Shown here: positions 1 to 22,542 of the stretch, piece by piece | Layout: every line of letters starts with the position of its first letter | Position numbering within the stretch: the stretch's first letter is position 1 | Assembly (NCBI GenBank): GCA_007570995.1 | Contig: RKSG01000089.1 | Span: 1-32,583, forward strand | From: Nitrospirales bacterium | GTDB lineage: Bacteria > Nitrospirota > Nitrospiria > Nitrospirales > UBA8639 | Length of the DNA: 32,583 nt | Direction: 5' to 3' | The notes under the pieces: model-generated | What the model saw: the letters and a program-made list of their open reading frames with translations, nothing else | Told to the model about the DNA's origin: nothing | Database searches by the model: none | Program-made: the position numbers and the translations under genes

Positions 1-244
1 CCCCTACCGTGATATTGCCAGAACCTGACACCGCCCAGGCCAATGCCCCACCTCCAATCGTTCCAATAAAAATTCCGACAAAAAACCGGCGGCCCCCAAG
101 TAGCCCGATCCCCAAACCCAAGAGACATCCCAGCCCGGTTGCAATATAGAGTATGGCACCACCGAGAAGAATGCCAATGAGCGCCCCCACCGTCCCCATG
201 ACGACGACGCCCAGCCCCACGTCCAGCACACCTGATTTAGACAT
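1..244 (-). CDS. Glycine-rich small membrane protein (3' end cut off by window start)
   Basis: Read directly on the minus strand from ATG at 244: [81 protein letters not shown], open to the edge, with GAAGGAG upstream of the ATG. The supplied 4..231 ORF is a different, spurious frame. Confidence 0.75.
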
Positions 245-279
245 GGCAGACTCCTTCGTCAACGGCCACTGGCCATACG

Positions 280-921
280 TCATTCCGCACTGACTTCAAT
301 GGTCCCAAAATCCACCTCCACGCCAGGACCACTTTGCAGAGAAATACCCCATGCCCGGGACGCCGGGTCATGACGATGAATTTTCTGAAAGTCCTCGTAG
401 GCATTGACTTCTTCCTCGACCCAGACCCCCAACGGTTGTCGGCCCGAACGAACCACGATCTCCGCCGCACCAAATAATCCGCCATCTGTGACCGATCCTT
501 TGCGTTTCAGATCACTCCAGACGTATTTGGTCGACACCGGAATAAACAGCAAATCTGTATCCAGGTTCGCAAAGAGCGCTACAAGAAAATCAGCGTTCTC
601 CGGGACCGATTGTAGACGCCACCGCCACCGCAACACAGGATGAGTTTTGGGATTCCACTCAATATGCCTGGTATAGACCCGCTGATTCGCCCTCGTCCCT
701 CTCAGAAACATGGTATCGCCTTCGCGATGAATGGCATACGCCTCTTTCGCGGTCACCGTGCTCCGTGACCCTTCCCATTCGCGAGGAAAGCCATCCTCAT
801 CAGGATTGCGAAAATCTTCGAGTATCGTCCCGCTCAAGACAACCGGGGCACCGATCAAAGACACGATGAGCACCATTAGGACCATGACCCCGTTGCGGAA
901 CCCGCAGTGTCTCTCGCTCAC
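280..921 (-). CDS. DUF3047 family secreted protein
   Basis: 213 aa with signal-like N-terminus, then [19 protein letters not shown]...[16 protein letters not shown]...[16 protein letters not shown], typical of DUF3047. GTG start overlaps the stop of the upstream gene (GTGA). Confidence 0.8.
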
Positions 922-2786
922 GCCGACTCCTCTCGAGAAAACACTCGTGCAAACGACACACTATCAGGTGTGGTTGGCCGATCGTCCTCCACCGCGAACA
1001 CGCTCTCTCTCGTGGACAACCAGAACATGCAAAACACCGAGGCCCAGAATACCGCCATATTCACGGTCACTATTTTGGCGGCAAACATCATCTGGGGCGT
1101 GAATGACCAAGGGGAAAGATCTGCCATCACTTCATGCACGTGCCAGCCCAACCGCCCGGCTGAACGAATGTATCCCATCAATCCCATCACCCAGGAAAAC
1201 GTCGCTGCAACCCCGAACAACGCTACCATTCCTCGCACAGAAATCCTGCCCCACTGGACGAGACCGCGACGCTCGCTTCCCTTCAGCATACAATGATTGA
1301 TCAGTAACCCACCGATTAAGACTCCAGCCGTGGTCACACCCTGCGGCAGGGACAAACCAACCCGGACATGAGCGGGAATGTAAAACCCGTAAATGGCAAC
1401 CCAGATGATATTGGCCATCCCCGAGGCAAACAATACCCCGATTGCAACATTACCCGCCCTGGCCCAAGGCACCGTGATGACTCGATTGGCCCGACGATAC
1501 AACAGGTAGCTCAAAGCCGTCAGGCAAACCATGACATTAATGGCCCCGTTTTTTGCCGACATCACCCCGAATTGACCAATGACAGGATGTTGAGCCGCGC
1601 CCATCGCTTTCATTTCACCAGGTGTCATGGCAATGGTATGGGGGGTGAACCAGACCAGAAAAGCCACGATCAGTCCGCCGATGATACATTTGAAATAGGG
1701 ATGATACCGTGCCCCATCACGTAACCGTCCCAAGGATTGCCAGACATAATAATTAATGCCTAGGAACAACGCACCGACGGTACTCGCCTGAATCACAAAA
1801 AGCCAGGACAGCAACCCGCCCATCATCGTCATGCCCATTTCCTGACGGAAGGTAAAGACGGCCCGCATGAGCCAATACCCGGCAAACGGCATCGGGAGCA
1901 AGGCACACACCACGACGACAATGAACACGTAGCCCATCCAATCGTAATACGCCCGCTCTTCCAGACACCTGGTTTTCAAGAACCGATAGGCCGCATAGGC
2001 CACAACCACGGCCCCCCCCGACATAATATCCGCCAGGAAACGATGGGCATTTAATGGATTCCACAAAGGAGAATGCAGCAGATGCCAGACGTTCCCTAAA
2101 AACTGTCCCTCGGCATTCACACCGGCCGGGGCCATCATGAATGACGCCCAGGCATTCGCTAACAGGAGCAACATTACTCCCATACCATTAGCCAGTACTC
2201 CGAGAGACAGGTGCACCCATTTCCAGACGCCGAAAGCCAGACGCGTCCAACTGTAGTGGTACAACACGAGAAGAAACGATTCACCGACAAACACCATGGC
2301 GTACACCGGCATCATGGGTTTAAACGTCGAGCCCATGTACTGCATAAAATCCGGGTAGAGTGTCAGGAACGCGCCAAGCATCACACTTCCCAGCAACGCC
2401 GTCATCGTCATCGAAAGCACGCCGACACGCAGCACATCGCGACCGAGTCCATCGTAGCGTTTGGCCGCCTGAGAATCACGACGGGACACACCAATGAACT
2501 CAAGGAGCAACGCAAACAACGGGAGCGCCAGAACGAATCCCCCAAAATAGGTATGCTGCTGCGTGACAAACCAGATGAGGATCCGGTTATCCAGGTATCG
2601 CCACTGGGGATAGGTAGGTTCAACCGCCGTGGCAGGCAGGCTCTGCGGGATGCCTTCAGTCTGATAATAGACGTCCCGAGTCGGTTGATAGAGCGAAGGG
2701 GTCTCGGAACGGGCCCACAACTCGGTGGCAATACCAAGGGCACCGCCAAGAACGAGCAAAAGCACACAACGTGAAGCCATGTTCAT
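918..2786 (-). CDS. CydA-like cytochrome bd-type oxidase subunit I (long, many TM helices)
   Basis: 622 aa polytopic protein. HTYFGGFVLALPLFALLLEFIGV, VFVGESFLLVLYHYSW, LANAWASFMMAPAGV...NAHRFLADIMSGGAVVVAYAAYRF resemble CydA helices and heme-ligand regions. No CydB-like gene nearby. Confidence 0.75.
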   Translation of the reverse strand: MNMASRCVLLLVLGGALGIATELWARSETPSLYQPTRDVYYQTEGIPQSLPATAVEPTYPQWRYLDNRILIWFVTQQHTYFGGFVLALPLFALLLEFIGVSRRDSQAAKRYDGLGRDVLRVGVLSMTMTALLGSVMLGAFLTLYPDFMQYMGSTFKPMMPVYAMVFVGESFLLVLYHYSWTRLAFGVWKWVHLSLGVLANGMGVMLLLLANAWASFMMAPAGVNAEGQFLGNVWHLLHSPLWNPLNAHRFLADIMSGGAVVVAYAAYRFLKTRCLEERAYYDWMGYVFIVVVVCALLPMPFAGYWLMRAVFTFRQEMGMTMMGGLLSWLFVIQASTVGALFLGINYYVWQSLGRLRDGARYHPYFKCIIGGLIVAFLVWFTPHTIAMTPGEMKAMGAAQHPVIGQFGVMSAKNGAINVMVCLTALSYLLYRRANRVITVPWARAGNVAIGVLFASGMANIIWVAIYGFYIPAHVRVGLSLPQGVTTAGVLIGGLLINHCMLKGSERRGLVQWGRISVRGMVALFGVAATFSWVMGLMGYIRSAGRLGWHVHEVMADLSPWSFTPQMMFAAKIVTVNMAVFWASVFCMFWLSTRESVFAVEDDRPTTPDSVSFARVFSREESA

Positions 2787-2811
2787 GCAAAGCTCTCTCT
2801 CGAAGATCCGC

Positions 2812-3843
2812 CTAGCCTGACACCCTCTGTCCGGTTTTGGCGAGCATGTCCATTACGAATGGGCAACGTCTCAAGGCTTCGGGCATACCGCCTTGTGTTT
2901 GCGCTTCAACATGCACTCGCACCCCCAACACATAGCCATACCCGGCCATCATTGCGACCGTTCCCCCGCCGACAGCCAGGTGCAGGACAAGCGGGACATC
3001 CTGCCACTGCAACACAAACATGATAACGCCCGTTTGCACCAGATAGTATGTCAACGCAAACGTCAAACACGGCCAAATCCAGAACTGGCACATGTCCCAC
3101 CATGGGCGGCTTGTGAGACGTTCCGAAGCAGGTACATGCGGGTGTCTCCCTGATAAAAATGCTCCGTGCGCAAAACAAGCCGCCAACACACAGACGACCA
3201 TCATCTGTCCAATCTCATTCTCGGCTGCAGGCCAATAGAAGCGACACACAGCGACGACCGTTCCACCGGCTCCTACCCCCGCCCCTCCCCAGCGAGCCAG
3301 TTGAAAAACGTCCCGCCGGCTCAATGCACGAAACGAACCACCGTCAGGAAACGTCACCATCCGTGTCCCATGTGATTCCACGCGGACGACGTGCCCGATT
3401 TCAAAGGCATCACGCGTGACCGCCGTACAGGCAATAATCAAGGCCATCATCGCTGGGCCTTCGGGATGCAGAAGAAAGTGATAATCGACAAAGAGTGCCA
3501 GGAGTGCCAAGACGAACAACGAAAGCTGCACACCATAGACCAACCCGATCCACCCACCTACCCAGAGAAGACGACGGAGCCCCTCCGTATGCACAATACG
3601 GACAAAGGACTCCTGCCGCCCCATCGCATACGACCAGTACGCGACCAGCATCGCCAGCACACCACTCACTGTCAACAACAGAAACGGGTCAGAGAGAGGC
3701 AGCACATGGGTGACGAGACGGTAGAGCAGGAACGCCACCAATCCCGGAACGATCATCACCCATCGTTTCCGCTTCCGAACGTCGGGAGTCGTGACAGCCA
3801 CCTGCAGTTGCGGGATGACTCGAAGTGCTAATCGATGAAACAT
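2812..3843 (-). CDS. Polytopic membrane protein of unknown function
   Basis: 343 aa with several hydrophobic helices; start overlaps the end of the PCP_red gene (3828..4421) by 16 nt, supporting a real operon gene. Confidence 0.75.
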   Translation of the reverse strand: MFHRLALRVIPQLQVAVTTPDVRKRKRWVMIVPGLVAFLLYRLVTHVLPLSDPFLLLTVSGVLAMLVAYWSYAMGRQESFVRIVHTEGLRRLLWVGGWIGLVYGVQLSLFVLALLALFVDYHFLLHPEGPAMMALIIACTAVTRDAFEIGHVVRVESHGTRMVTFPDGGSFRALSRRDVFQLARWGGAGVGAGGTVVAVCRFYWPAAENEIGQMMVVCVLAACFAHGAFLSGRHPHVPASERLTSRPWWDMCQFWIWPCLTFALTYYLVQTGVIMFVLQWQDVPLVLHLAVGGGTVAMMAGYGYVLGVRVHVEAQTQGGMPEALRRCPFVMDMLAKTGQRVSG

Positions 3844-4421
3844 CGGAATCTCAACAAGGCACGACGTCCCATGCAGGACGTGGAGACAGCACCGAACGGC
3901 GCGCCCGTCAGCCTGCGCGCATGACCGTGTGTGCCTCGGGATGTTGGCACCGCCACGCCGAAATAGCGGGCTTTGATGTCGTCCATCAGGGCTACCGTGA
4001 CTTCCGGCATCTCCCGGTCCTGCGCGGTCCGTTCCAATTCCGCGCGGGCCATAGCACGAACGGCGGCAGGAACCCGGGACAAACGACGTTCCGCGTCAGG
4101 GTGCCAGGAGACCAAGCCATGATGCCGGGCCTGCATCATCAATCCGGTTGAAATCAGCGCGAGACGGTGTTGAACAGCATAGGCCTCCACTTCCTGCTGA
4201 ACCAAAGGCGCCACGTATGGTGGCAGCCGATCTAAACGATGCTGAGCCTCATCGGTCCATACCGGACGTGCAAAGAAGCCGCTCGCTTCCCGATTATTTG
4301 CCTCAATCCCTAAATGAAATCCGCACGACCGACAGGTGTAACAAAGCATTGCATGCTGCGCATCCCATTCTTCAATGGCACGGCACTGGAAATCCGAGCC
4401 GCAGGCACACGTCATCACCAT
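3828..4421 (-). CDS. Tandem PCP_red domain protein with N-terminal CxC...CxxC motif
   Basis: 197 aa; N-terminus TCACGSDF...CYTCRSCGF (zinc-ribbon-like), then two PCP_red-like segments: VWTDEAQHRLDRLPPYVAPLVQQEVEAYAVQHRLALIS and SWHPDAERRLSRVPAAVRAMARAELERTAQDREMPEVTVALMDDIKARYFG. ATG directly follows the TAG of the upstream gene. Confidence 0.75.
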   Translation of the reverse strand: MVMTCACGSDFQCRAIEEWDAQHAMLCYTCRSCGFHLGIEANNREASGFFARPVWTDEAQHRLDRLPPYVAPLVQQEVEAYAVQHRLALISTGLMMQARHHGLVSWHPDAERRLSRVPAAVRAMARAELERTAQDREMPEVTVALMDDIKARYFGVAVPTSRGTHGHARRLTGAPFGAVSTSCMGRRALLRFRCFID

Positions 4422-5138
4422 CTATCCAATTCTTCCAGGATACAAAATATACAGCATGGCATACGTCACACTTCCAGTGACAAACAGGATGCAATACACC
4501 ACGATGGTAAACCGGCCCAACACCCGATGGCGCCGCGCGCCATTCGGCCAAAGCCTCTGAATGGTCATCTCCACACCAAACACAATGGCAATAAGCACGA
4601 TAAGGCCAAGGTAGACACCGAGCTTGCCTGCGGAAAATCCGGCGGTGACCCCGCGGCCGAGAAAGAATAACAATACGACACCCGCCACGATCCCAAACAT
4701 CGTCCCGATTTTCTTCCAAGTGGTTTGCACGATAGCCTCATGTAATGTGCGATGCCCATCGACAATGGTCTGGGAGCGAAACCCCAAGACTATCATGTAA
4801 ATTGCCATGACCAATCCGATCACGACCAAAAGAATGTGAAAAGTTAACAGAGGAACAAAGACGTTCTCATACAGAGTCTGTGACCCGCCGAACCCCTCTT
4901 TCCCTTCAAAGGCCAACACCCCCAACTGACGAAATAAATAATAACTCGTGAAAAACGCCAACATGGCCACCATGCCGCCAAGCATCAACCAATGATGACC
5001 TGTCCCATTGCCCTTTTTGGCCTGTACCCCCCCGACAAGGAAAAGCGCGGTGAACAACATCGCCATGAACTGGCTGATATCGGCTCCCATTGTCGCATGC
5101 GTCCCGGCAAACCCGGGCTCTCGCAACCATTCAGCCAT
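4422..5138 (-). CDS. DUF420 family membrane protein
   Basis: Start chosen at MAEWLREPGFAGTHATMGADISQFMAMLFTALF, overlapping the methyltransferase stop (ATGGCTGA). LRQLGVLAFEGKEGFGGSQTLYENVFVPLLTFHILLVVIGLVMAIYMIVLGFR is DUF420-like. Confidence 0.75.
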   Translation of the reverse strand: MAEWLREPGFAGTHATMGADISQFMAMLFTALFLVGGVQAKKGNGTGHHWLMLGGMVAMLAFFTSYYLFRQLGVLAFEGKEGFGGSQTLYENVFVPLLTFHILLVVIGLVMAIYMIVLGFRSQTIVDGHRTLHEAIVQTTWKKIGTMFGIVAGVVLLFFLGRGVTAGFSAGKLGVYLGLIVLIAIVFGVEMTIQRLWPNGARRHRVLGRFTIVVYCILFVTGSVTYAMLYILYPGRIG

Positions 5139-6165
5139 CTCCGCCTCCTCTTGGTTTGATTCCCTGAACAATCGCCCGCGGCGCAAGTTCCGTGACGGAC
5201 CCAAAACCAGCCTGTGTCATCCACTGCATGGCGTCCTGTGTCGTGAAACATTCCCCCTGTTCCGTGTTGACCAAGATATGCACGGCAAACGCTGTCGTCC
5301 AGGCAGGGCTCGTCCGGTCCTGATCCAAAAACCGATCTTTGATCAGCACCCGACCAAGGGCCGTTAAATGAGAAAATGCTTTTTCCACCAACCGTGCATT
5401 GGCGTGAGCACTTTGGTAATGAAGAATATCGGACAGCAACGCCAGATCGTAGGGACCGCCCCATGAATCCGTATTAAAATTCCCAGGTTGTAAGGCAATA
5501 CGGTCCTCCAAACCGGCTTCCCGGATATACCGTTTCGTCACCTTCAGGGTTTGAGGAAGATCAAACACGGTGGCTTTAAGAGAAGGATACGCGCGGCAAA
5601 ATGCGATGGCATTCGTCCCCGCACCTCCGCCCACGTCAACCATATGCTCTCCTCCCTCCAGTTGGAGGAATTGCGCGAGGTTGACACCACTCCCTCTACC
5701 GACACGGTCCAGCACCGCCAACACGTTGGCACCCATTTCCGGGTTGGTCTCAAACAGATGCTGACGCACCGGGGCAATACCGGTCCGGACGGTTTCCTCC
5801 AGTCTGCCCCAGTTCGCCCATTCCGAATCGTGCAACACCAGAAGATGGCCAACGTAGTCCGGACTTGTTTTCACCAGATGCTTCTGAGAAACACTGGTAT
5901 TCGCAACACGCTCCTCTTGTTTCGTCAAGATTCGCATCGCGACCAACGCATTGACGAGGAGTCCCAGTGCCCGTTCATTGAGCGATAATCGACGGGCCAA
6001 GCCGGCAGGAGAGTCACTGCACCCGTCCAAGGCCGAAAACAGCTCCAGCTTCACTGCCGTGAGGAGAATTTTCGTCTCCCAGTAATAGCCCATCTGAAAT
6101 ATTTCGGCGAGAGACAGCTCACGAGGCACAATACATCCTTTGTATTGTCGATGCGGATAAGCCAC
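5131..6165 (-). CDS. SAM-dependent O-methyltransferase with dimerisation domain (hydroxyneurosporene / acetylserotonin methyltransferase-like)
   Basis: 344 aa; winged-helix N-terminus (ELFSALDGCSDSPAGLARRLSLNERALGLLVNALVAM), SAM motif MVDVGGGAGTNAIAFCRAYPSLKATVFDLPQTL, and LALLSDILHY. Confidence 0.85.
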   Translation of the reverse strand: MAYPHRQYKGCIVPRELSLAEIFQMGYYWETKILLTAVKLELFSALDGCSDSPAGLARRLSLNERALGLLVNALVAMRILTKQEERVANTSVSQKHLVKTSPDYVGHLLVLHDSEWANWGRLEETVRTGIAPVRQHLFETNPEMGANVLAVLDRVGRGSGVNLAQFLQLEGGEHMVDVGGGAGTNAIAFCRAYPSLKATVFDLPQTLKVTKRYIREAGLEDRIALQPGNFNTDSWGGPYDLALLSDILHYQSAHANARLVEKAFSHLTALGRVLIKDRFLDQDRTSPAWTTAFAVHILVNTEQGECFTTQDAMQWMTQAGFGSVTELAPRAIVQGIKPRGGGDG

Positions 6166-6387
6166 GGTTGAATCGTTGCCCGATAGTAGCGGCCTGAAAC
6201 CTGCGAACGCAAGGCAAGGACACGAAGCACAAAGGATAACAACGGTAATACACGACCGCCATCTCCATTGTGGGAGGTTTCACCTGCAACGCAACTGTTG
6301 TGGCCAGCCTAGGCCAGACTGTCGACAATCTGACGGGACACGGAGAGAGACGGGGATTCGAGAGGAACAGGAGGAAAGGAACACCAA

Positions 6388-6416
6388 GACAGAAAAGGGA
6401 GAACCCCTTTTCTGTC
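6388..6416. terminator. Perfect 12-bp hairpin (GACAGAAAAGGG-agaac-CCCTTTTCTGTC), candidate terminator
   Basis: Arms 6388-6399 and 6405-6416 read directly; lies in the gap after the 6604..7398 gene and before the methyltransferase gene. Confidence 0.5.
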
Positions 6417-6603
6417 CTGGTTTGTCATACTTCAGGCCGACATCCGGATAACTCCACCACACGCCTGGATTGTCAGTGGCAAGCTCCATCGCAAAGACGC
6501 CACTACACCATCAATGAGCGTGATCTGACCGGACGGGCGACATCGCCCTCTCACAGGGCAGGCACGGCTACAAAAGCCAACTTCCATTGCCCAAGGCATG
6601 GCT

Positions 6604-7398
6604 TCACGGCTTAAATTTATTCTTCTTTTTGATATCGAAGTCGACTTTTACAGTCGCACCATCCTCGACTTCCACATCCATCGTCACGTTCCCGGCCACT
6701 GGGTGCCAAGCCAGAACTTTGTGTTTACCTGCCGGGACGTCCGTAATTTCAAACGACCCATCGCCACCTGACACATCAAAATGAGCGTTACTGACCGGCA
6801 AAAACCAAGCCTGCATAAATTCATGCTGGTCACACTGCAACCGAAGAACAGAACCCTTTCTAGCCATACGCATCTTGATTTTCTTGTCAAGTTTGTCGCC
6901 CTTTTTGGCCAACCCGATATTGAACAAGGTCGAGGATTTCGCACCAAGCACATCAAAGCTGTGGGGATTATGTAACACCCCTTCTTTGGACTTGGGATCA
7001 TTGGGGTCCGCGTCAGTATTCTCCACAACAAAGTTCCCTTTGTTCACTAACACACCTGTAAAAGGTAGGAACTCACACAGTTTGGCGATCACCTGGGGCG
7101 TATGCTGAAAGCCTTTATCCTTAATGCCACGAACAGACACGATGGCGTTTTTGAGGCCCTTGTTCGCATCCACTTCGACTTCCTTCAACAAACGTGTATC
7201 GTCGCCTTCTTTACTGGGATTCTGTTTGCAGAAATCCGGATTGGGGAACTTGGAAAAGGCAAATTCTTTCGGCGGGACGGGTTTGCCGGAATACGTGATT
7301 GTGCCCGCAATCGTCCCCCCAGCCTGCGCCATCAATGGCGTTGCAAGCAACAACCCGCCAAGGAACACCGAAACAGCACGCGATTGACGATTCCTCAT
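6604..7398 (-). CDS. Secreted cupredoxin-like + carboxypeptidase-regulatory-like protein (paralog 1)
   Basis: Start MRNRQSRAVSVFLGGLLLATPLMAQA with GGAGGAGAG upstream. Ligand-like residues HNPHSF and QCDQHEFMQAW; C-terminal GDGSFEITDVPAGKHKVLAWHPVAGNVTMDVEVEDGATVKVDF. Confidence 0.8.
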   Translation of the reverse strand: MRNRQSRAVSVFLGGLLLATPLMAQAGGTIAGTITYSGKPVPPKEFAFSKFPNPDFCKQNPSKEGDDTRLLKEVEVDANKGLKNAIVSVRGIKDKGFQHTPQVIAKLCEFLPFTGVLVNKGNFVVENTDADPNDPKSKEGVLHNPHSFDVLGAKSSTLFNIGLAKKGDKLDKKIKMRMARKGSVLRLQCDQHEFMQAWFLPVSNAHFDVSGGDGSFEITDVPAGKHKVLAWHPVAGNVTMDVEVEDGATVKVDFDIKKKNKFKP

Positions 7399-7513
7399 AA
7401 TCTCTCCTCCATGGGAATGAAGCCTGAACCTACAAAACCCCTCACGAACAACGCTCACCTGACTTACGGGGAAGGCACACTAAACGCGTGTCAGTCCCTC
7501 ATTGTCTGACTGG

Positions 7514-7534
7514 CACGCCCGGTGACCGGGCGTG
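7514..7534. repeat. Inverted repeat CACGCCCGG-tga-CCGGGCGTG
   Basis: Perfect 9-bp arms, 3-nt loop, in the gap between the 7655..9685 gene and the 6604..7398 gene; no T-run beside it. Confidence 0.45.
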
Positions 7535-7654
7535 AAATTCCCCCCGACATCTTCCCACGCAAATCATTCTTTCTATAACAACACGCTCAACAACGTGTCA
7601 AGTGCATACGCTTTCCAATGCCTCAAGCATCCGTAGGTTTCGGCTGACGGTGAT

Positions 7655-9685
7655 TCAGCGAGCCGGTGAGGAGGCGGCATTCTCCATCGTCGGAAAGCCT
7701 GTCCGCGACTCCATCACAGCCGCGAACACTTCCTTGAACTGGTCCATCAACTCATCGGCCCGTCTGACAGGACTGGAGCATAATCTGTCGGTGCACACGT
7801 AGGCCAAAGGGCCTGTCACCCTGGGAAACGTGACCCCTCCAATGGACAGCACATCAACACGGGGGTCCAGAAACCGAACCATCTTCCCAGGAACATACAT
7901 CGCCAGACTGTGGCGAAAGAGGTGTTGAGCTTCGCGAGTAGATTTGTCGCCCACCACAACGATAGACACAGGATCGTATAGGAACCGACTGAGGGCACGA
8001 CCCGTTTGAGTAACCGGCAGCGGTGCAGCCCCGGCTATAAATTGAAGCAGTGTCCTGGCTTTATCACGGTACCAGGGATTCCGGGTGAGATAAAACAAGT
8101 CAGAAAACACCATGGACAACGCAGCATTGATCCGAAGGTCCTTATGGGGAAATTTCAACAATCCCAAGGAAGACGAAGCCGGCACTCGATCAAAATACCC
8201 ACCTCCCCGTTCATCTCCGAGAAGGTGGACGCAGTCCGCAATGACGGCCTCAGCCTGTTCAAGGTACAGCAACACGCCAGTGGTGACAAAGGCTTCAATC
8301 AGGGCATCCGCAAAAAAGACCTGGTCGGCCAGCAGCCCGAATTGCTGGGAGCGACCCTCGTGCAGAAAATGAGCCAGTCCACGCCCGGGCTGATACCGTT
8401 CGTCATACAGACGCTGAAGCGTCGTCAGGGCAAACTTCCGAGCCTGATCGCTTCCCAGAACCTGGGCGACCCTGAGAAACGCCTTGGCCATCATCCCATT
8501 CCAGTCCGTCAACATCGTCCGGTCAACAGCAGGTACGCCAATGCCCAGACGCTGCGATTCATTCAAGACAAAAAACTCGCTCCCGAGGACGGTGGTCCCA
8601 GCACCATCCACGTGTCGAACGTCGGCATCCTGACTGGCATAAAAGCCTCCCCGCTCTTGATCAGACAGAAACCGTGTCACGTAACGCATCGTCCCCTCTA
8701 CCACTCCACGATAGATCGGCAAGCCGGTGCTCTGGTACGCCTCAAGATAATTGAGCAGATTGGATGCTTGAATGTACAGCATCTTTTCATAATGCGGTTT
8801 GGACCAATCCGACTCCTCGGCATAGCGGAAAAACCCACCCCACACCGGATCATAGAGCTGTAATTGTTGATCCAGCGTAAATAACGCCATCTGCCGATAC
8901 CCGGAATTCGGATCCCAGAAATGGCGCGCGAAGGCCAAGGTAATGGCTTCGGGCTCAAAAAATTTTGGAGCATCGCCAAAGCCCCCGTTCACCTGGTCAT
9001 ACTGCTGCTTCATGGCATCGAGCAGTTGACCAAGCATCGCTGGTCGAATGGGATCGTGCGGTAACGTATGCTCTCGTTTTGCGGCTTCCACCTGTGCCCA
9101 GACATTGGCAGCTCGTTCCACCATACCCTGCTTGTCTTCTCGATACACTTCATCGGAGACCCGCAACACTTCAATGATGTTTTCTGCAGTCAGGAAGTTC
9201 GTCTGGAACACGATTTCTCCGGAAGGGAGAAGGATGCTGGTGGTTGGCCAACCGCCATGTTTGTACCGAACCGTAATATCCGGACGTTGATCGGTGTCAA
9301 CCCTGACTGGAATAAACTTGGCATTCAGCAGGGCCACCACCTGAGGATCACTGTACGTGGTCGCATCCATCACATGGCATGCATGACACCACCTCGCTGT
9401 AAGATCAAGCAGGATCAGTTTGTCTTCTGCACGGGCCCGATCAAATGCGTTGGTACCCCATTGCAACCACTGGATCGTTGACGAGGCAGCCACAGATTCC
9501 GTGCTCGCGAGCACAGACCCTGGCATCACATATCCCACCATCAACACATACAACGCATACGGGATGATCCGGGCGTGAAACTGGGCACCGTGATTGCGGC
9601 GTAGCCTTCCTAGCTTGTGCCCTTTGAGGCTTCGCTTGTTATTGAGCCGCTTCGCCCTCGACATTTCAAAATCACCAGCGTACAT
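7655..9685 (-). CDS. Thioredoxin-fold DUF255 protein (YyaL/SPATA20-like), secreted or membrane-anchored variant
   Basis: 676 aa; WLQWGTNAFDRARAEDKLILLDLTARWCHACHVMDATTYSDPQVVALLNAKFIPVRVDTDQRPDI...GGWPTTSILLPSG is DUF255; N-terminal hydrophobic segment. Confidence 0.85.
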   Translation of the reverse strand: MYAGDFEMSRAKRLNNKRSLKGHKLGRLRRNHGAQFHARIIPYALYVLMVGYVMPGSVLASTESVAASSTIQWLQWGTNAFDRARAEDKLILLDLTARWCHACHVMDATTYSDPQVVALLNAKFIPVRVDTDQRPDITVRYKHGGWPTTSILLPSGEIVFQTNFLTAENIIEVLRVSDEVYREDKQGMVERAANVWAQVEAAKREHTLPHDPIRPAMLGQLLDAMKQQYDQVNGGFGDAPKFFEPEAITLAFARHFWDPNSGYRQMALFTLDQQLQLYDPVWGGFFRYAEESDWSKPHYEKMLYIQASNLLNYLEAYQSTGLPIYRGVVEGTMRYVTRFLSDQERGGFYASQDADVRHVDGAGTTVLGSEFFVLNESQRLGIGVPAVDRTMLTDWNGMMAKAFLRVAQVLGSDQARKFALTTLQRLYDERYQPGRGLAHFLHEGRSQQFGLLADQVFFADALIEAFVTTGVLLYLEQAEAVIADCVHLLGDERGGGYFDRVPASSSLGLLKFPHKDLRINAALSMVFSDLFYLTRNPWYRDKARTLLQFIAGAAPLPVTQTGRALSRFLYDPVSIVVVGDKSTREAQHLFRHSLAMYVPGKMVRFLDPRVDVLSIGGVTFPRVTGPLAYVCTDRLCSSPVRRADELMDQFKEVFAAVMESRTGFPTMENAASSPAR

Positions 9686-9878
9686 CCATGCCGAAACTCA
9701 TTTCCAGAATCGTGGCGACCAACCAGATCATGCAAGCAAGATTGTCAGTTTTCTTGCCGACCATATTGTTGCATTTAACAATCATGCACACCGGAACGCG
9801 GTCTGGCCGCGCAAGCCAACGAATAAAGCAGGACCGCCGCTCACGTCCAGGGAACGCGTTCGGTTCACGGATCGGGCA

Positions 9879-11249: not shown

Positions 11250-11921
11250 TTATCCTTCACCCGCCTGTTTCCTGGCCGCCTGGACCTTGCGATAGCCCAA
11301 TGGAATCTCAAAAAAATACTCCGGCTGTCTGGAGAGAATGACGCGATCATATTCGACCGACCAATCCCTGTTCTGACTCATCAATTTGAGCAATAACTGT
11401 CGTGGTTCATCAACCCACTCATAATACATCTCACGACGATCGTGATGCTCAACGGCCACTTCATACAATACAGCTTCCTGGTCGCCAACCAGTGCATCGC
11501 CGATCTTCCGCCTTAACGCCTCACCCTCCAGAGTCACGGACAGGGGCAACACGTCATCCAGGATCAACGGAACCTCCACGACCAATCGTCGCTGAGAAAG
11601 CACGTACCACACGCATTGTTGGTCCAGTCGGACAATCGTGACCGTCGCATAGCCCAAATTTGTTTTGATCCCCCCACGATGTTCGATGCGATATCGGTCA
11701 CCCTTCGCAAACAACTGGGCCCGGGAAGTTTTCCCGCCGGCATGCCATGTGAGACTGGCTGAAAAGTCTCGACTGTGTCCAGCCTGAAGACCGGATAGTT
11801 CCACGGCATACGCTGGCTCGTCGGACAGGCCGAAGAGCAGGACGGAAAACAAACAGGGGAAAACAGGAAGGAGCCCACGCCGCCCCGCCTGGATTGTACG
11901 GGGGACAATACCAATCATCAC
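11250..11921 (-). CDS. Secreted LolA/outer-membrane-lipoprotein-sorting-like protein
   Basis: 223 aa, signal peptide; SLTWHAGGKTSRAQLFAKGDRYRIEHRGG...CVWYVLSQRRLVVEVPL...YYEWVDEPRQLLLKLMSQNRDWSVEYDRV resembles LolA/DUF4412-type beta sheets. Coupled to neighbours at both ends. Confidence 0.55.
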   Translation of the reverse strand: MMIGIVPRTIQAGRRGLLPVFPCLFSVLLFGLSDEPAYAVELSGLQAGHSRDFSASLTWHAGGKTSRAQLFAKGDRYRIEHRGGIKTNLGYATVTIVRLDQQCVWYVLSQRRLVVEVPLILDDVLPLSVTLEGEALRRKIGDALVGDQEAVLYEVAVEHHDRREMYYEWVDEPRQLLLKLMSQNRDWSVEYDRVILSRQPEYFFEIPLGYRKVQAARKQAGEG

Positions 11922-11922
11922 A

Positions 11923-12831
11923 TTACTGCCGCTTGAGGAGGGGAACGATCGTCACGTCTCGCCCTAATGCAGCAGGCGTAAATCGAGGAGGCGTGCGCAC
12001 CGTGAGCACCGTCTTGTGTCGTCCGGGAGCAGGAAGCTGAAAATCAACAGTGAGCGTGTGCTCTGGCTCAATCGTCACGTGCTTCTTCACAATCTGCTTC
12101 ACGCTTGGATGCCATACCCGAATGGAATAATTGCCAGGCGGCACATCGGCAATGGAAAATCGCCCGCGTTCATCGGTCAGCACATGGTACGGATTCTCCA
12201 CCGCGATCGCCCAGCTTTCCATATAGGCATGAAAGCCACACTGCATAACAAATGTTCGGCGTTTTTTGCTCAGTTGGAATTGTCGAACCAGGGAGGCACC
12301 GGGTTGATGGTCGTGCTTTGCATGCAAGTTACCACGTTGATGTCGCCGGTTAAAAGGAAGCGGGGCATTAAACAGCACGCGTGTCCCTGTCACGGCCGAC
12401 GTTTCATAGGCTTGAATATCATGCATCACGGGGTCCATATTGACGACCTCAACCCCATGCCCGCTTCTCACAACAGTGGTGAAAGGCAGAAACTGACAGT
12501 CTCGAGCCTCAATACGAGGAACAGACACCGAAAATGGCTTACCTGCCTCGACTCCCTCCAGTAAGACGACGACGTCTTGTATCTGGCCTTGATCGTTCAC
12601 GACAAAATCCCGAAGCAGCCGCCACCCATTGCCATTGGATATGCGTCCGCAATACTCAGGATCTGGAAATGTCACCAGATTATAGGCCTTGGGATCAGGA
12701 ACGGGGCCAACAAGCGTGATCGTCCCCTCTACCCGTCCTCCATTGTTGACTTCGCGGACTTCATAGCCCCACGCCACACGACCAGCCATAAAGAACACGA
12801 TGCACAGGAAGACCCAGACGGACTTGGCCAT
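11923..12831 (-). CDS. Secreted cupredoxin-like + carboxypeptidase-regulatory-like protein (paralog 2)
   Basis: Likely start MAKSVWVFLCIVFFMAGRVAWG. CQFLPF...NMDPVMHDIQAYE...FVMQCGFHAYMESW, then GRFSIADVPPGNYSIRVWHPSVK. Confidence 0.8.
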   Translation of the reverse strand: MAKSVWVFLCIVFFMAGRVAWGYEVREVNNGGRVEGTITLVGPVPDPKAYNLVTFPDPEYCGRISNGNGWRLLRDFVVNDQGQIQDVVVLLEGVEAGKPFSVSVPRIEARDCQFLPFTTVVRSGHGVEVVNMDPVMHDIQAYETSAVTGTRVLFNAPLPFNRRHQRGNLHAKHDHQPGASLVRQFQLSKKRRTFVMQCGFHAYMESWAIAVENPYHVLTDERGRFSIADVPPGNYSIRVWHPSVKQIVKKHVTIEPEHTLTVDFQLPAPGRHKTVLTVRTPPRFTPAALGRDVTIVPLLKRQ

Positions 12832-12847
12832 CACGACACGCGTTTTG

Positions 12848-13774
12848 TTAAGGACGTTGCAACCGAACAGAGGGAACAATTTCAAGATCTTCCCCCAATA
12901 ATTCCAGACCAAAGTGGGGATTCTCCTGCATTTCATGCACACTTCTGCGTCCTGTAACAGGCTCATAGGCAAAATGTGCAGTGCTCGTTCTCCCCGCTTC
13001 CACAACAACGGGCTGCTCCAGATATTTTTTCATGCCGGCATGCCAGACGGTCAACACATACTCTCCGGGAGGGACATCCGTCATTGCAAACGCACCATCT
13101 TCTTTTGTGATGACATAGTAGGGATTGCGAACCACGACTCCCCAGGAAAACATATAGGGATGAAACCCGCATTGCATCACAAAAATATCTCTTCCTTTGC
13201 TGAGACGAATTTTCTGAACCATGGGCGTTCCAGGCAAATGCCTGTGACTATTCACCATCCCCAGCATCTTATGGAAAGGATTCATGGGTAACGGGCGATT
13301 AAACAAGACCCGTGCACCACGCACGCGAGCAGTTTGATAGCCCTGAATATCGTGTTGAACGGGGTCCATATTCACCACCGTGATTTCATCTTGGTCTCGC
13401 AATACATTCACAAACGGCAGAAAATCGCAGTCCACCGCCTCGATGCGCACTTCGGGCAAAGCAAAAGGTTTCCCTTCTTCAATTCCCTTGAGCATGACCA
13501 CAGCATCTTTCAGACTGCCATTTGGTCCAACAACAAAATCTTCGACAATCCGCCACCCGGTACCTGTGGAAATCCTGCCGCAATACCTGGCATCGGGTAT
13601 GGTCACCAAATTAAAAGCCATAGGCCGGGGTTTTTCGCCAAGTATCCTCACGTCCCCTTTGATTGTCCCCCCATCAGTGACCGAAATTTCTTCATACGAC
13701 CACCCCGGCGAAGCCGCCAAAAGAAGCCCGACGGAGATCACCCACGCCCAACCCACCAAGGGACGTTTCCCCAT
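12848..13774 (-). CDS. Secreted cupredoxin-like + carboxypeptidase-regulatory-like protein (paralog 3)
   Basis: Likely start MGKRPLVGWAWVISVGLLLAASPGWS. CDFLPF...NMDPVQHDIQGYQ...FVMQCGFHPYMFSW, then GAFAMTDVPPGEYVLTVWHAGMK. Strongly similar to 11923..12831. Confidence 0.8.
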   Translation of the reverse strand: MGKRPLVGWAWVISVGLLLAASPGWSYEEISVTDGGTIKGDVRILGEKPRPMAFNLVTIPDARYCGRISTGTGWRIVEDFVVGPNGSLKDAVVMLKGIEEGKPFALPEVRIEAVDCDFLPFVNVLRDQDEITVVNMDPVQHDIQGYQTARVRGARVLFNRPLPMNPFHKMLGMVNSHRHLPGTPMVQKIRLSKGRDIFVMQCGFHPYMFSWGVVVRNPYYVITKEDGAFAMTDVPPGEYVLTVWHAGMKKYLEQPVVVEAGRTSTAHFAYEPVTGRRSVHEMQENPHFGLELLGEDLEIVPSVRLQRP

Positions 13775-13868
13775 CGCTCTCTCTATCAGCGTTCCTGCAA
13801 CACTCATGATTATGTGGACCACGAGAGGCCCCAATACATGCCCCTCATACTACAAAAGCAACGTATAG

Positions 13869-13905
13869 AAAAAAGACGGAGAAGCCGAACATCGGCTCCC
13901 CCGTC
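13869..13905 (-). terminator. Rho-independent terminator downstream of the multicopper oxidase
   Basis: Hairpin GACGGgggAGCCGA-tgt-TCGGCTtcTCCGTC followed on the minus strand by TTTTTT (13869-13874), just after the gene stop at 13942. Confidence 0.7.
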
Positions 13906-13941
13906 CTTCCCCACCGCAATGGTTTCTCCAACCAGCCGTTA

Positions 13942-16900
13942 TTAAAATGAAACCTGGCTGACTCTGCCTTCCGAAAACCGGTCGATCTGTGCTTCCTTGA
14001 CACCTGGAGTCACGCCACGAAGCGGCAGAATTCTCTGATCATTTTTGGACAAAACCCGAAAGTACCCCCATTGCCCTGACTGTGAGTAAGGCAAACGCGC
14101 ATTGCTGTACACGTAATCACCCGTCATGGCATACGGACCACCTGCCGCGGGAACAAAGACATCAACGCCTTCAGAACCGGAAAATTCCACGACGCTGATC
14201 TGGTCTGCACCTTCCATAAACGGTTCAATCGGCCATTCATGCTTTTCGAGAGTAAACATGCCATTTTGCTCATTGCTGGCACCAAACACATGAATCCGCA
14301 CGGGATCACCAGCATGGGCTTCAATAAGCGGCGTAACCGGATCTTGCGGATCATCAACCTGGCAAGGTTGGAACATACGACCCAACGAACATCCAAGTTC
14401 TTCGCGATACAAATAAGGCTCATTCCGGTAATTGACTCCGACGAGCCCGGCCACATTCTGGACGTAGGGCATAAAACTGGTTCCAATAATATTGTCCTCA
14501 TCCTGGAAATACAGGGACACGTCACGATAGTTGGCCCGATATTCATTGCCCGGGATGGTCCGATCCACAATGACATCGGCAACCCAGCTGTTCTTCAAGG
14601 AAATATCAGCTCCAGTCTTGGGGTCACGATAATGTGACCCCTTGGGACCAATAATAATCCCACCGAACAACCCGTTTCTCGGATTCAGAGCCACGTTTCC
14701 CCAGTCCCATACCAAAGATTGCGTCTCGCCAGTAGATGGATCCGCATAATAGGTATAAGTCCGGCTTTTCCCTGGAGCGACGGTTTGATCACCGGCATTC
14801 TTGCCAAGGTTGACGCCTTGCGAATCCGCAGGATCGAACGCCAAGGCGAAGGCGGAGAAAGACGCCCGTCCTTCCTTCATTTTGTTGGTGAGTTTCACCT
14901 TCAGGCAATCCCCAACATTCGCCCGTAAGGTCAGAGGCATGGGCTGGAATTCTCCGGAAACCTTGGCCGCTTCTTCCTCCAAGATGTAGATCCTAGCATT
15001 TGGATTTCGCACGGCAATGGTTCGTTCAAAATCCACTTCAATGGCTTCCTCCACATTGGGATTGAAGACCATTTGCGGATAATCAATTGCCACGACATTG
15101 AAATTTTTCACCGGAGCATCAGAGGGACACAATGGCAACGGCTTCTTCAGGCCAGGCCCACCGAAACCGGCATTCGGCAAAGGCTGCAAATCAGGCACTG
15201 GTTCATCCAGAACCCTGACCACCCCCCAGGACCCCTCGGACAGTTTCGAGCTCCGGCCATTGAAATACATGTAATCCCCGGGTTGTAGTCTCGGCCCTCC
15301 AGCCTGTGGGACCACCAAGTCATAGCGTTCGGCAATCCCGATGTGAATGGAATTCTTACGATTGGCGTCACCAGCATACCGCTCGGTCAGGAAGCTGTGA
15401 CCTGACACGGTGAAGACATTACTTTCGTTCATTGTCACATCAATTAACCGAAAGACAATGGTATCACCCAGATACGCCCGCACCATGGCAGTGCTCGGAT
15501 CCCCATGGATTGTGCTGTTGAAAATCTGCGATGGATCCGCGTTATTGGCCAATCGCTGGGCAAAGGGCTCGGCCCGAAAATTCAAGGCCCCGCCCGTCGT
15601 ATGTGTCCCTCCGTTGAGAAACGGCATTGGTGTCATTTTAATTGAGTCGTTCGGTGGCATTTGGAAAGATACCGTCCGTCCGGCTTCTAACGCCACCTCA
15701 ACCGGTTGTCCGGGAGGATTCCCGGCTGTCACGACATTGACCGTGTGAGGAACGGTATCCATAATCTGCACCATCAACTCACGAAAACTTCCGCTCACGC
15801 CGTAGCCCACGGGCTCCACAGTGTGAATATCCATCACCGGGCCTGTCCGTTTGGCCTCCCCAGTGACCGGATCATGCCACGTGGATCCAAACGGCTCAAT
15901 CAGGAACGAACAGATTGCACCATGTGGCCATGTCGTTCCGCCAAACGCATGGTCGTGACAGAACACGGACCCGACATCCGCATCTGCCCAGAACCGTTGA
16001 CGCACGAATTCAACCGTCACGATATCCCCAACCGGGTGAGCATGTCGCAGGGGCTCTTTCAAGGTAAGTGTCTGAGCCTTCTCATCGATGCTGGTAATTC
16101 GCTTCACTTCCGAGCCTTCGACGTTATCAGCCCCGACAAGGATTACGGTACCGACGTGATACTGCTTGGCATTCGTGACATGAATGGTCCGATCGCCCTG
16201 CTTAGCCGCTTTCGTGAATCTGGCATTCATGGGTACCGGTAACCCTTTTTCCGTTTTCTTCTCGAACTGTGTAAAAGGTCGCACAGATTGTTCGTAGGAG
16301 AAGCCACTGATCACGCCATCGGAAGCCTGATTGTCAAACTGGACAAAATGAAAGTGGGTATTAATCTTCGAAGACTGAAAATTGGTAAAGTCATCGTCGA
16401 GCCATTCACTTGTCAAAATCCAGTCCATGCAATCATAAATGTTCGCGCGAAACACCAGCGGTACCTTCAAATCATTATTCTGCCGAATCGCTTCTTCTTC
16501 ATCATGCACCACATACAACAACCCGTTCGGATCAACAATGGCGTCCTGATCCCCTTGGGCCGCTGACAACTCAATTGGAAGCTTGATAAAATGGATATTA
16601 TACTCTTGGGAACCAGCCCGCTCCGGGCACAGGCTCCAACGGCCATTCTCACCGGGTCGTGCCGGCTCAACCGACGGCTGGCCATCATCATCGAGATGGA
16701 TCATTTCCAGCCATGGCGCGGGATTGCGATCCGGCGAGAACGGTGCCCGTTTTCCGAAGTGAGGAGTCAACCAAGGCCACGCGACTTTGCCGGTACTTGC
16801 CTCGAACCATATCGGCCGCCGTTCCCCCTGCTTGTATCCTTGCCATTCAGGATGGTATTTGGGATTTTCAACCGTGCTTTCTTTTTCACTCATTGCACGA

Positions 16901-18906
16901 TCACCGTCCCAAACCCAATCAACCACGGTTGCGTCATACGATTTAATTTGGCCGACCTCATCTTCCACATGACCGGGAAGACCGCGAGTCGGCAATTGCA
17001 TTTCCACCCAATCGTAAATGCGCACCACAGCCGGATCGGATTGCCAATTGGTTTTTTCAGTGTTCTCAACGATCCTGAACCGTTTTCCGAACCAGTCAAC
17101 GGTGGTCCCCACCAATTTGTCAGACGTCACCGGCCCGGCAATGCGCCCCATACGATCGGGCAACTCGCGAAGTGGAGGCATCACGTCGTTCTGGATACCA
17201 GGAGCCTGCAAGGTGTTATACACCCGCCAGTAGCCCCACATGCCAGCCACATAGTGATGCGCCACGTGGCAATGGAACAAAAAGTCACCGGCCAGATATT
17301 GACACAAACCGGATCCGCATTCCGTTTCCAGATCAATTGCTTCAGACGGCCCTATCACCTCCACGTCAACCCGGTCTGATTTGGCACGAATGAGCGGATA
17401 TTTCACGGGCCCATTCTGCCCCTTGTGCCACATGGGCATCTGATCGACCGCTCGAGGGCTTCGGACCCATCGAATCGCACCGCCATGCGGATGATGGGAA
17501 TGGAACACCTCGGACCCGCCATGCACCAGACGAAACTTGGCAGGATCCCCCAAATAACTCCGTGGAATTGTCGGCCCTGCATCACCGAACGTGTATGCAC
17601 TGTACGCCATGGACTCGTCTTCAAACCCAAAGTACTCATGTTGAACGTGCATATTGTTGATGCCAAACGGCTCACTTCGGTAGTTCAGTGCCCTGGCCCC
17701 TGGCCGATAGGCATCGGTTAACGGGTCACGTTGCGGAAGGAAGTCCCCATGCCGGTTCACGGGTCGGAAGGCTTCATCGCCTACTTCGTGGTAGATTAAC
17801 ACAAATTCCCGGAAGTCTGGCCCTTGGCCATTTTGAATGATGGCTTGCCAACCACTCGACATCGCATCGGCAGAACCCACCCCAAGTGGATCCAGATACT
17901 CCGAACCAGCCGGTTCAACCACGAACACCCCAAACAGCCCCATCACTGTCAGCTCACGGTCATTACTGTAACTGTGGAACTGCCGCCCGCCTTCCTGCGT
18001 GGCAGGATGGATATACCACTCCATGTGCACGGGTGTGGCGTCACAATGTTCTTCTCCCTCTTCTTCACCCTCTTCGCCTTCTTCCTCTTCTTCACAATCT
18101 TCGCCAGGGCCATAGGCAATGGCATCAGGATTTGTCGTCGTCGCAGGCTGGCCTGTCTTACTGACCACCATGCTGGACCCGTTGATGTGGAGACTGACAT
18201 CCTCTCCGAATTCCAATTGATTGCGCAGTGTGATTCTGACACAATCGCCTTGATTGCCACGAATCACCAGCGGTTGAATGTATTGACCCTGAATGCCGTT
18301 TTTCACAGCACCTGGGTCATGATGGCCTTCCGCCTCCCGCGCTTCGGCATTGCTGGCCTCTTCTGCACGAACCTTCTCAATATTCTCGGTCAGCACGTAC
18401 ATATAGCCTGGGTAATAATCCAGCCATTGATTTAGAGTGATTTCCACATTGATGGCCGACACGTCATATTTTCGAACCGGAGCCGCCGTCGGACATCTCC
18501 CATCGCTTGTCAGGGAAACCGGTTCAATATCGGCATCGGAAGACAGCAAGTAATTCCCCTTACCCGCACCGTATTGATGCATCATGGACATCGTGTCAAA
18601 TCCCCCGGAGCCAGAGGATCCTGCTTCCCTGCCCATTTGCCGCATCAAACGCTCATGCTGCTGTTCAACAAGCGCGGCGCGCTCTGCCCTCCCCTCCTGG
18701 GCATTTTCGACAATCGTCTGCCCTTTAAGGCGCTCTGTCCACGTCGGGCTCTGATGACTCATCCCTGTTGTGTGAAGCAATGGTTGCACAGTGCGCTCTT
18801 CAGCTCCCGCAACCGACAACGGAAGCATAAGGAACGCGAGAGCAAACATACTTTTCACTCCCGGAAACGCACATGATCTTACGGAAAAACGATTAAAACG
18901 AAACAT
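13942..18906 (-). CDS. Giant multicopper oxidase (~1654 aa), MofA-like candidate
   Basis: Start at MFRFNRFSVRSCAFPGVKSMFALAFLMLPLSVAGA with CGGAGG upstream. Contains FHCHVAHHYVAGM (canonical HCHxxxHxxxxM), VFHSHHPHGG, NTHFHFVQF, VFCHDHAFGGTTWPHG. Confidence 0.9.
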   Translation of the reverse strand: MFRFNRFSVRSCAFPGVKSMFALAFLMLPLSVAGAEERTVQPLLHTTGMSHQSPTWTERLKGQTIVENAQEGRAERAALVEQQHERLMRQMGREAGSSGSGGFDTMSMMHQYGAGKGNYLLSSDADIEPVSLTSDGRCPTAAPVRKYDVSAINVEITLNQWLDYYPGYMYVLTENIEKVRAEEASNAEAREAEGHHDPGAVKNGIQGQYIQPLVIRGNQGDCVRITLRNQLEFGEDVSLHINGSSMVVSKTGQPATTTNPDAIAYGPGEDCEEEEEGEEGEEEGEEHCDATPVHMEWYIHPATQEGGRQFHSYSNDRELTVMGLFGVFVVEPAGSEYLDPLGVGSADAMSSGWQAIIQNGQGPDFREFVLIYHEVGDEAFRPVNRHGDFLPQRDPLTDAYRPGARALNYRSEPFGINNMHVQHEYFGFEDESMAYSAYTFGDAGPTIPRSYLGDPAKFRLVHGGSEVFHSHHPHGGAIRWVRSPRAVDQMPMWHKGQNGPVKYPLIRAKSDRVDVEVIGPSEAIDLETECGSGLCQYLAGDFLFHCHVAHHYVAGMWGYWRVYNTLQAPGIQNDVMPPLRELPDRMGRIAGPVTSDKLVGTTVDWFGKRFRIVENTEKTNWQSDPAVVRIYDWVEMQLPTRGLPGHVEDEVGQIKSYDATVVDWVWDGDRAMSEKESTVENPKYHPEWQGYKQGERRPIWFEASTGKVAWPWLTPHFGKRAPFSPDRNPAPWLEMIHLDDDGQPSVEPARPGENGRWSLCPERAGSQEYNIHFIKLPIELSAAQGDQDAIVDPNGLLYVVHDEEEAIRQNNDLKVPLVFRANIYDCMDWILTSEWLDDDFTNFQSSKINTHFHFVQFDNQASDGVISGFSYEQSVRPFTQFEKKTEKGLPVPMNARFTKAAKQGDRTIHVTNAKQYHVGTVILVGADNVEGSEVKRITSIDEKAQTLTLKEPLRHAHPVGDIVTVEFVRQRFWADADVGSVFCHDHAFGGTTWPHGAICSFLIEPFGSTWHDPVTGEAKRTGPVMDIHTVEPVGYGVSGSFRELMVQIMDTVPHTVNVVTAGNPPGQPVEVALEAGRTVSFQMPPNDSIKMTPMPFLNGGTHTTGGALNFRAEPFAQRLANNADPSQIFNSTIHGDPSTAMVRAYLGDTIVFRLIDVTMNESNVFTVSGHSFLTERYAGDANRKNSIHIGIAERYDLVVPQAGGPRLQPGDYMYFNGRSSKLSEGSWGVVRVLDEPVPDLQPLPNAGFGGPGLKKPLPLCPSDAPVKNFNVVAIDYPQMVFNPNVEEAIEVDFERTIAVRNPNARIYILEEEAAKVSGEFQPMPLTLRANVGDCLKVKLTNKMKEGRASFSAFALAFDPADSQGVNLGKNAGDQTVAPGKSRTYTYYADPSTGETQSLVWDWGNVALNPRNGLFGGIIIGPKGSHYRDPKTGADISLKNSWVADVIVDRTIPGNEYRANYRDVSLYFQDEDNIIGTSFMPYVQNVAGLVGVNYRNEPYLYREELGCSLGRMFQPCQVDDPQDPVTPLIEAHAGDPVRIHVFGASNEQNGMFTLEKHEWPIEPFMEGADQISVVEFSGSEGVDVFVPAAGGPYAMTGDYVYSNARLPYSQSGQWGYFRVLSKNDQRILPLRGVTPGVKEAQIDRFSEGRVSQVSF

Positions 18907-18998
18907 AGCCAGCCTCCGTAACAAGGAACACACCTTCTGGGAAACACTTGTGGAATGACACAATCCATCCTCGTCATATCAGATGCAACAGTGAGGGG

Positions 18999-19028
18999 AG
19001 CGTATCGAAAACCATTCGAACATGTCAA
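18999..19028 (-). promoter_or_regulatory. Candidate sigma70-like promoter for the multicopper oxidase
   Basis: Minus strand TTGACA (19023-19028), 18-nt spacer, TACGCT (18999-19004). The -35 is perfect, the -10 weak. Confidence 0.3.
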
Positions 19029-22047: not shown

Positions 22048-22542
22048 TCAGCGAAGAACCAGAAGCGTGCCACCCACATGCGCGCCATGCAACTGACATT
22101 TGTACTGCAGGGTGTTGCTTGCCGTAACATATGTCAAGTCGCTGACCGGAATACCAATGTACTTGGTTTCACCTGGCTCCAGGGTAATCTTCACATGCAT
22201 TGACGTTGGCCCGGCAAACGCAGAATCTGCATTGAGGTCAAACCCATGCACACTGTCAAGTGAATTGGTCACCTTGAGAAGCACCGGGCGACCTGCTCGC
22301 CCCCCTGTTCCCTGAGATGTGAGATCAAGGATGGCTGTTGGCGGATACCATACCTTTTTGCCACCGATCTCCATCGCAATAAAACTCACGTCAACATCAA
22401 GTGTTTTAAACGGCTGTCCTACAACGGACCCGGAAGCGAGATCCCCAACTTCCACACCTCCGGACTGCAACGCCAACGCGACCGAAGAACCAGTCGCCAC
22501 CAGAATGAAACTCAAAAGGACGGATAGAAGCACCTTGCGCAT
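22048..22542 (-). CDS. Small secreted cupredoxin-like protein
   Basis: 164 aa, signal peptide; TNSLDSVHGFDLNADS...ITLEPGETKYIGIPVSDL...LQYKCQLHGAHVGGTLLVLR, cupredoxin C-terminal Cys/His loop. Confidence 0.8.
   Translation of the reverse strand: MRKVLLSVLLSFILVATGSSVALALQSGGVEVGDLASGSVVGQPFKTLDVDVSFIAMEIGGKKVWYPPTAILDLTSQGTGGRAGRPVLLKVTNSLDSVHGFDLNADSAFAGPTSMHVKITLEPGETKYIGIPVSDLTYVTASNTLQYKCQLHGAHVGGTLLVLR

Follow-up and report, generated by a model that had tools for sequence, protein, structure and literature searches.

We examined a contig of 32,583 nucleotides (RKSG01000089.1, or C3; hereafter "the window", meaning the whole stretch analysed) from a Nitrospirales metagenome-assembled genome (MAG; assembly GCA_007570995.1, 1.98 Mb in 186 contigs). 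Positions 1 to 19,028 hold a block of genes for a giant multicopper oxidase (MCO), three cupredoxins (cup1, cup2 and cup3) and a CydA-like protein of a bd-like oxidase. Among named genomes, the nearest to this one are Nitrospirales MAGs, including isolate MEX2-MAG7 and Nitrospira sp. bin75. The NxrA- and NxrB-type genes of nitrite oxidoreductase (NXR) lie on a separate contig (C94), and the genome therefore most likely belongs to a nitrite oxidizer, of the marine type. As the window is a complete contig, the block is truncated at its left end. A first-pass annotation had described the block as a single candidate module for metal oxidation and electron transfer. Open reading frames (ORFs) and Pfam matches confirmed every gene that it named, all on the minus strand, as follows (f1, f2 and f3 denote three Nitrospirales families).

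2..283 (-): small membrane protein of 94 aa, truncated by the contig end (110 aa in genome G009); an ORF found at the same place in families f1 and f3
280..921 (-): DUF3047 protein with signal peptide (PF11249, E=9e-14); syntenic
918..2786 (-): CydA-like bd-like oxidase subunit, matching Nitrospira bd-like_4 in position (PF01654, residues 68-324 only)
2812..3843 (-): orphan membrane protein with about five hydrophobic segments (12 orthologs across the order)
3828..4421 (-): tandem PCP_red protein with an N-terminal Cys (zinc-finger-like) motif (PF08369, E=8e-22, two stretches)
4422..5138 (-): DUF420 (CtaM-like) membrane protein (PF04238, E=3e-17)
5131..6165 (-): O-methyltransferase (OMT) with dimerisation and Methyltransf_2 domains (PF00891, E=6e-23)
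6383..6421 (-): strong terminator-like hairpin between cup1 and OMT (18-pair stem; z=-3.3 against shuffles, an optimistic value)
6604..7458 (-): cup1, secreted type-1 cupredoxin with a CarboxypepD_reg-like domain (H163, C209, H212 and M215 invariant)
7655..9685 (-): DUF255/Thioredox_DsbH protein (PF03190, E=4e-29), present here in family f1 only
9879..11249 (-): HEAT-repeat protein with signal peptide (PF13646, E=8e-47)
11250..11921 (-): secreted protein, called LolA-like at first; syntenic
11923..12831 (-): cup2, secreted type-1 cupredoxin with CarboxypepD_reg (PF13620, E=7e-11; ligands invariant)
12848..13834 (-): cup3, secreted type-1 cupredoxin with CarboxypepD_reg (PF13620; structure model with pLDDT 89)
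13942..18906 (-; the ORF opens at 18963): giant MnxG-related MCO with all copper ligands and without a LysM insert (PDB 9bxa, E=1.3e-67)

Pfam supports DUF3047, Cyt_bd_oxida_I, tandem PCP_red, DUF420, Methyltransf_2, DUF255/Thioredox_DsbH, HEAT and, in the cupredoxin-type proteins, CarboxypepD_reg; the Cu-oxidase match of the MCO is weak. Pfam lends the LolA-like label no support, the protein at 11250..11921 having no match in the search of the window proteins. Alignments of orthologs, taken together with signal peptides, move the start of DUF420 from 5204 to 5138 and that of cup2 from 13008 to about 12831, and put that of the MCO most likely at 18906. Start/stop overlaps had been ascribed to the block at large; overlaps and zero gaps are confined to two sub-blocks (OMT to DUF3047 and cup2 to HEAT), and the remaining gaps measure 107, 193, 196 and 438 bp. 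The C-terminal tail of the PCP_red protein is unconserved after aa ~160, which makes the ORF about 36 residues longer than expected from its orthologs (most are of 158-166 aa) and suggests a frameshift near the ORF stop.

Neighbourhood comparison by tblastn of the window proteins against relatives' genomes, most of them MAGs, revealed that the gene order is conserved in three Nitrospirales families, far above chance. The linkage of MCO, cupredoxins and CydA-like gene, which the first-pass annotation had put forward for this kind of check, is thus conserved across relatives. In family f1 the order is MCO, cup3, cup2, LolA-like, HEAT, DUF255, cup1, OMT, DUF420, PCP_red, orphan membrane protein, CydA, DUF3047 and small membrane protein and, some 3.5 kb later, a second CydA. 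One f2 genome and family f3 have the same order minus DUF255, and often just one of cup2 and cup3 was detected. In 55 of the 68 genomes compared, MCO and CydA are co-directional and separated by 7.1-12.5 kb (median 8.9 kb). Four single complete chromosomes (G010, G244, G192 and G058) carry MCO and CydA far apart, as does G241 on one contig, and in G010 the break falls between HEAT and DUF255. Where the MCO is elsewhere, in G010 and G058, cup1 remains beside OMT; cup1 is therefore positionally tied to the CydA side, and cup2 and cup3 to the MCO side. We discarded G002 as a further genome with separated halves, because the MCO half there stops close to the end of a contig, which may point to a contig break.

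The hairpin, identified by a structure scan at 6421-6383 downstream of cup1, lies inside the 438-bp gap, and a folding energy of -37.9 kcal/mol was computed for its segment. Ten other genomes of families f1, f2 and f3 also have a strong hairpin (about -24 to -40 kcal/mol), mostly with a T-rich tail, 13-40 nt past cup1; in G016, G028, G054 and G056 the hairpin after cup1 is weaker or missing. Each is the best hairpin of its gap, which makes the z-scores optimistic. A sigma-70 promoter scan gave no excess over shuffles. The predicted structure may serve as a terminator between cup1 and OMT. Because it divides cup1 from the OMT-DUF420-PCP_red-CydA unit, and because several genomes have the MCO half elsewhere, the 19-kb block probably consists of adjacent gene units and not of one operon, contrary to the single module first proposed.

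The MCO is found in all 117 sampled Nitrospiria genomes and in none of 182 other Nitrospirota. NxrA, searched with the window genome's own protein (match at E<=1e-200; TIGR03479 falls below its cut-off for NXR), is present in 85/101 Nitrospirales. All 16 sampled members of the class outside Nitrospirales have the MCO and a CydA-like protein and gave no NxrA match at that threshold (0/16). An accessory role of the MCO to NXR was rejected on account of these 16 genomes. At 73 of 90 MCO loci a cupredoxin gene lies at most 1.4 kb downstream on the same strand, versus 5.7 +/- 2.3 expected at random positions; the loci are related by descent, so the count measures retention and not independent events, and we attach no p-value to it. 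The adjacency holds at 45/49 Nitrospirales, 13/17 class-outgroup and 15/24 Nitrospinota loci. MCO plus cupredoxin is thus the tightest unit, also in Nitrospinota and in class members that lack NXR.

At about 1650-1670 aa, the MCO has as its best solved relative MnxG (PDB 9bxa, E=1.3e-67), which bears out the kinship with Mn oxidases suspected at first. It is homologous to MnxG over much of its length and shares the order of the copper motifs, HxxHxH and HCH before two HxH. MnxG is shorter (1227 aa vs ~1650), and against the NCBIfam MnxG equivalog NF041487 the window protein reaches 122.2 bits vs a cut-off of 3100. The full series HxxHxH, HCHxxxHxxxxM, HxH, HxH provides the four copper motifs of a multicopper oxidase. 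Assigned by motif, the type-1 (T1) ligands H488, C565, H570 and M575 and the trinuclear ligands H491, H493, H564, H566, H870, H872, H1003 and H1005 are invariant in 87 homologs, and also in 44 picked for diversity. Members of this family with an intact trinuclear site are expected to reduce O2, with electrons entering at T1. Electrons should accordingly enter the MCO and end on O2, opposite to the direction first proposed, and given the intact trinuclear site the cupredoxins fit the part of electron donors better than that of acceptors.

In 21 MCO sequences a LysM domain (Pfam E=1.6e-13) is inserted between the two HxH motifs, for example at L025:12827-12958. As far as the loci show, all 21 are of the block-linked type of family f1. 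LysM binds peptidoglycan, and its presence in most close orthologs favours a periplasmic location of the MCO. The window MCO, where the corresponding site near aa 965 is empty, and the G002 MCO are without the domain and appear to have lost it. One MCO each was found in the window genome and G002, and two in most congeners; the second MCO of the congeners (L031:6941-14785, L028:7054-14866) is 78-79% identical, sits beside two-component regulator genes and has no downstream cupredoxin. A mostly keyword-based search of open-licence papers found no LysM-bearing MCO.

Each of the three cupredoxins has a signal-like hydrophobic N-terminus, a blue-copper domain and a CarboxypepD_reg-like domain, and each keeps an invariant type-1 ligand set of H and C-x2-H-x2-M. 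In cup1 the ligands named above are invariant in 79 homologs; in cup2 they are H196, C257, H260 and M263 (numbering of the 361-aa ORF). The cup3 model matches the amicyanin and plastocyanin folds at E ~1e-4. Elsewhere in the window, at 22048-22542 (-), a small secreted cupredoxin-like protein has invariant H99, C149, H152 and H155, with His in place of the axial Met found in cup1-3.

On the other side of the hairpin, the similarity of the CydA-like protein to CydA is confined to the N-terminal half; the C-terminal half is unrelated. H78, E96 and H248 are invariant in 17 bd-like proteins. None of these 17 has the GRQPW quinol motif, which sets them apart from canonical cytochrome bd quinol oxidases. 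With its CydA-like N-terminal half and heme ligands H78/H248, the protein is like the OR-N-like bd-like CydA proteins of nitrifiers, in agreement with the atypical bd-like oxidase first annotated. As described in PMC12342949 and PMC10839748, the OR-N type CydAA' bd-like oxygen reductases of Nitrospirota likewise have a conserved N-terminal half, no quinol motif and paired genes. Another bd-like pair of the window genome, beside a Rieske protein on contig C170, appears to resemble bd-like_1/2, which has been proposed as the terminal oxidase; the CydA-like gene of the window is a paralog distinct from it (~35% and 28% identical, as pairwise identities only). Beyond the left edge, as judged from G009 and from the window genome's own contig C26, follow two proteins with FGE-sulfatase domains and a second CydA-like protein, 49% identical to that of the window. 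In G009 two cytochromes c come next, and then a protein that combines an EB_dh domain with two cytochrome c domains. The two FGE-sulfatase (SUMF1-like) proteins are encoded at G000:C26:53-1922 (L100, +), past the left end of the window and ahead of the second CydA.

The orphan membrane protein is 38-69% identical to its 12 orthologs, with invariant H126, D145, E148 and C327. Conservation extends over the whole order and includes an RDAFEIGHV motif as well as invariant His residues; neither Pfam nor the PDB yielded a convincing relative in profile searches.

CtaM, the DUF420 protein of Bacillota, is required for heme-copper oxidase assembly and has been proposed to export copper, according to PMC13344008 and PMC9145763. 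The window protein is a membrane protein of the same family, 59-79% identical to its orthologs; a profile search of the PDB gave no convincing relative. Unlike CtaM, DUF420 of the window type is kept in genomes without a detectable heme-copper oxidase: COX1 was not detected in 17 of the 22 genomes searched, the window's own included. As DUF420 is conserved in spite of this, its copper would more likely go to the MCO, to the cupredoxins or to the bd-like complex.

The cluster is real, ancient and shared by the whole order, and part of it has been described before. For Nitrospina gracilis, Ca. Nitrospira defluvii and Kuenenia, Luecker et al. (2013; PMC3578206, Fig. 6) depicted a region that comprises NXR, cupredoxin, bd-like oxidase and MCO. 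Common to that region and the window locus are a bd-like oxidase, cupredoxin-like proteins, a zinc-finger protein, cytochromes c and an alternative NxrC, with the MCO in the two aerobes; the window is a further example of this partly described locus. It differs in that NXR alpha/beta are on another contig, and in a gene-by-gene order traced over three families, with DUF420, OMT, the orphan membrane protein and the dividing hairpin. In N. moscoviensis, bd-like_3, bd-like_4 and alt_NxrC_2 are conserved and among the 40 most transcribed genes (PMC6606698). There, too, two CydA-like genes lie a few genes apart, one of them beside cytochromes c and an EB_dh-type alternative NxrC; that account makes no mention of a multicopper oxidase. 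The gene-by-gene conservation, the dividing hairpin, the LysM insert and DUF420 without a heme-copper oxidase are not stated in the relevant passages of Luecker et al. or of other open-licence papers, although we do not claim that they are unpublished.

We consider the best explanation, with a probability of about 50%, to be an order-wide respiratory and copper locus of Nitrospirales that is built of adjacent units. The first unit (MCO, cup3, cup2, LolA-like and HEAT) would supply a periplasmic MnxG-related MCO and its blue-copper partners. Most likely, electrons reach the T1 copper from these cupredoxins and are used at the trinuclear cluster to reduce O2 to water; candidate ultimate donors are the respiratory chain, Cu(I) and Mn(II). 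The second unit (OMT, DUF420, PCP_red, orphan membrane protein, CydA-like, DUF3047 and two FGE-like genes, continued on C26 by the second CydA-like gene, two cytochromes c and the alternative-NxrC/EB_dh protein) would form a cytochrome-c-linked bd-like membrane complex, in which both CydA-like proteins may take part. DUF255 and cup1 lie between the units. Although ended by its own hairpin, cup1 stays beside the second unit when the MCO moves, which makes it the leading candidate for the carrier that serves the bd-like complex. DUF420, as a relative of CtaM, probably supplies copper to proteins of the locus.

Several points weigh against this explanation. The MCO-CydA linkage is missing in 13/68 genomes, some perhaps because of contig breaks, and no CydA block was found next to the MCOs of class members outside Nitrospirales. 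An alternative is that the cupredoxins act as copper chaperones or work with NXR or the cytochromes. The copper-site geometry of the MCO rests on motif conservation, as an AlphaFold model of residues 376-1262 (44 homologs) was rejected, with pLDDT 61 overall and an unfolded T1 domain at ~30.

The two units may, somewhat doubtfully, be neighbours by inheritance only, without a common function. The hairpin between them, the chromosomes and the G241 contig with distant MCO and CydA, and the MCO-cupredoxin pairs of the class and of Nitrospinota that have no CydA close by all fit such a history, against which stand an order held over three families and a nearly constant spacing. It is rather unlikely that the MCO serves as a periplasmic defence against reactive oxygen by oxidizing Mn(II) to Mn(III), as Luecker et al. 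(PMC3578206) propose for Nitrospina and Nitrospira. The closest solved relative is indeed a Mn oxidase, and the MCO is also present in class members without NXR. However, the score far below the MnxG cut-off tells against this role, which also leaves the adjacent cupredoxins unexplained. We regard a CueO-like copper detoxification oxidase as very unlikely: relatives of DUF420/CtaM are involved in copper resistance, according to PMC13344008, but the window has no copper efflux gene, the architecture is MnxG-like and not that of three-domain CueO, and the MCO occurs in every sampled genome of the class, unlike a typical resistance gene. Least credible is the earlier suggestion that the MCO oxidizes an extracellular metal and the adjoining cupredoxins pass the electrons to the bd-like oxidase: despite the proximity of the genes, an MCO retaining all T1 and trinuclear ligands should itself reduce O2, LysM in most close orthologs indicates the periplasm, the hairpin parts cup1 from the CydA unit, and seven genus members have no MtrB/PioB-type porin (PF11854) as a conduit, in a weak search whose cut-off no control genome reached either and which did not extend to Cyc2.

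Nitrite oxidizers of the Nitrospirales are mostly without heme-copper oxidases, which puts their electron route to oxygen at issue. That the MCO is a soluble, peptidoglycan-tethered, cupredoxin-fed terminal O2 reductase, and would thereby provide a copper-only respiratory branch in these nitrifiers, seems improbable. The comparison nevertheless narrows the question: the most widely conserved unit is the MCO with its blue-copper proteins, found across the class and in Nitrospinota with or without NXR. In Nitrospirales, this MCO-cupredoxin unit adjoins the bd-like complex and is probably transcribed apart from it.

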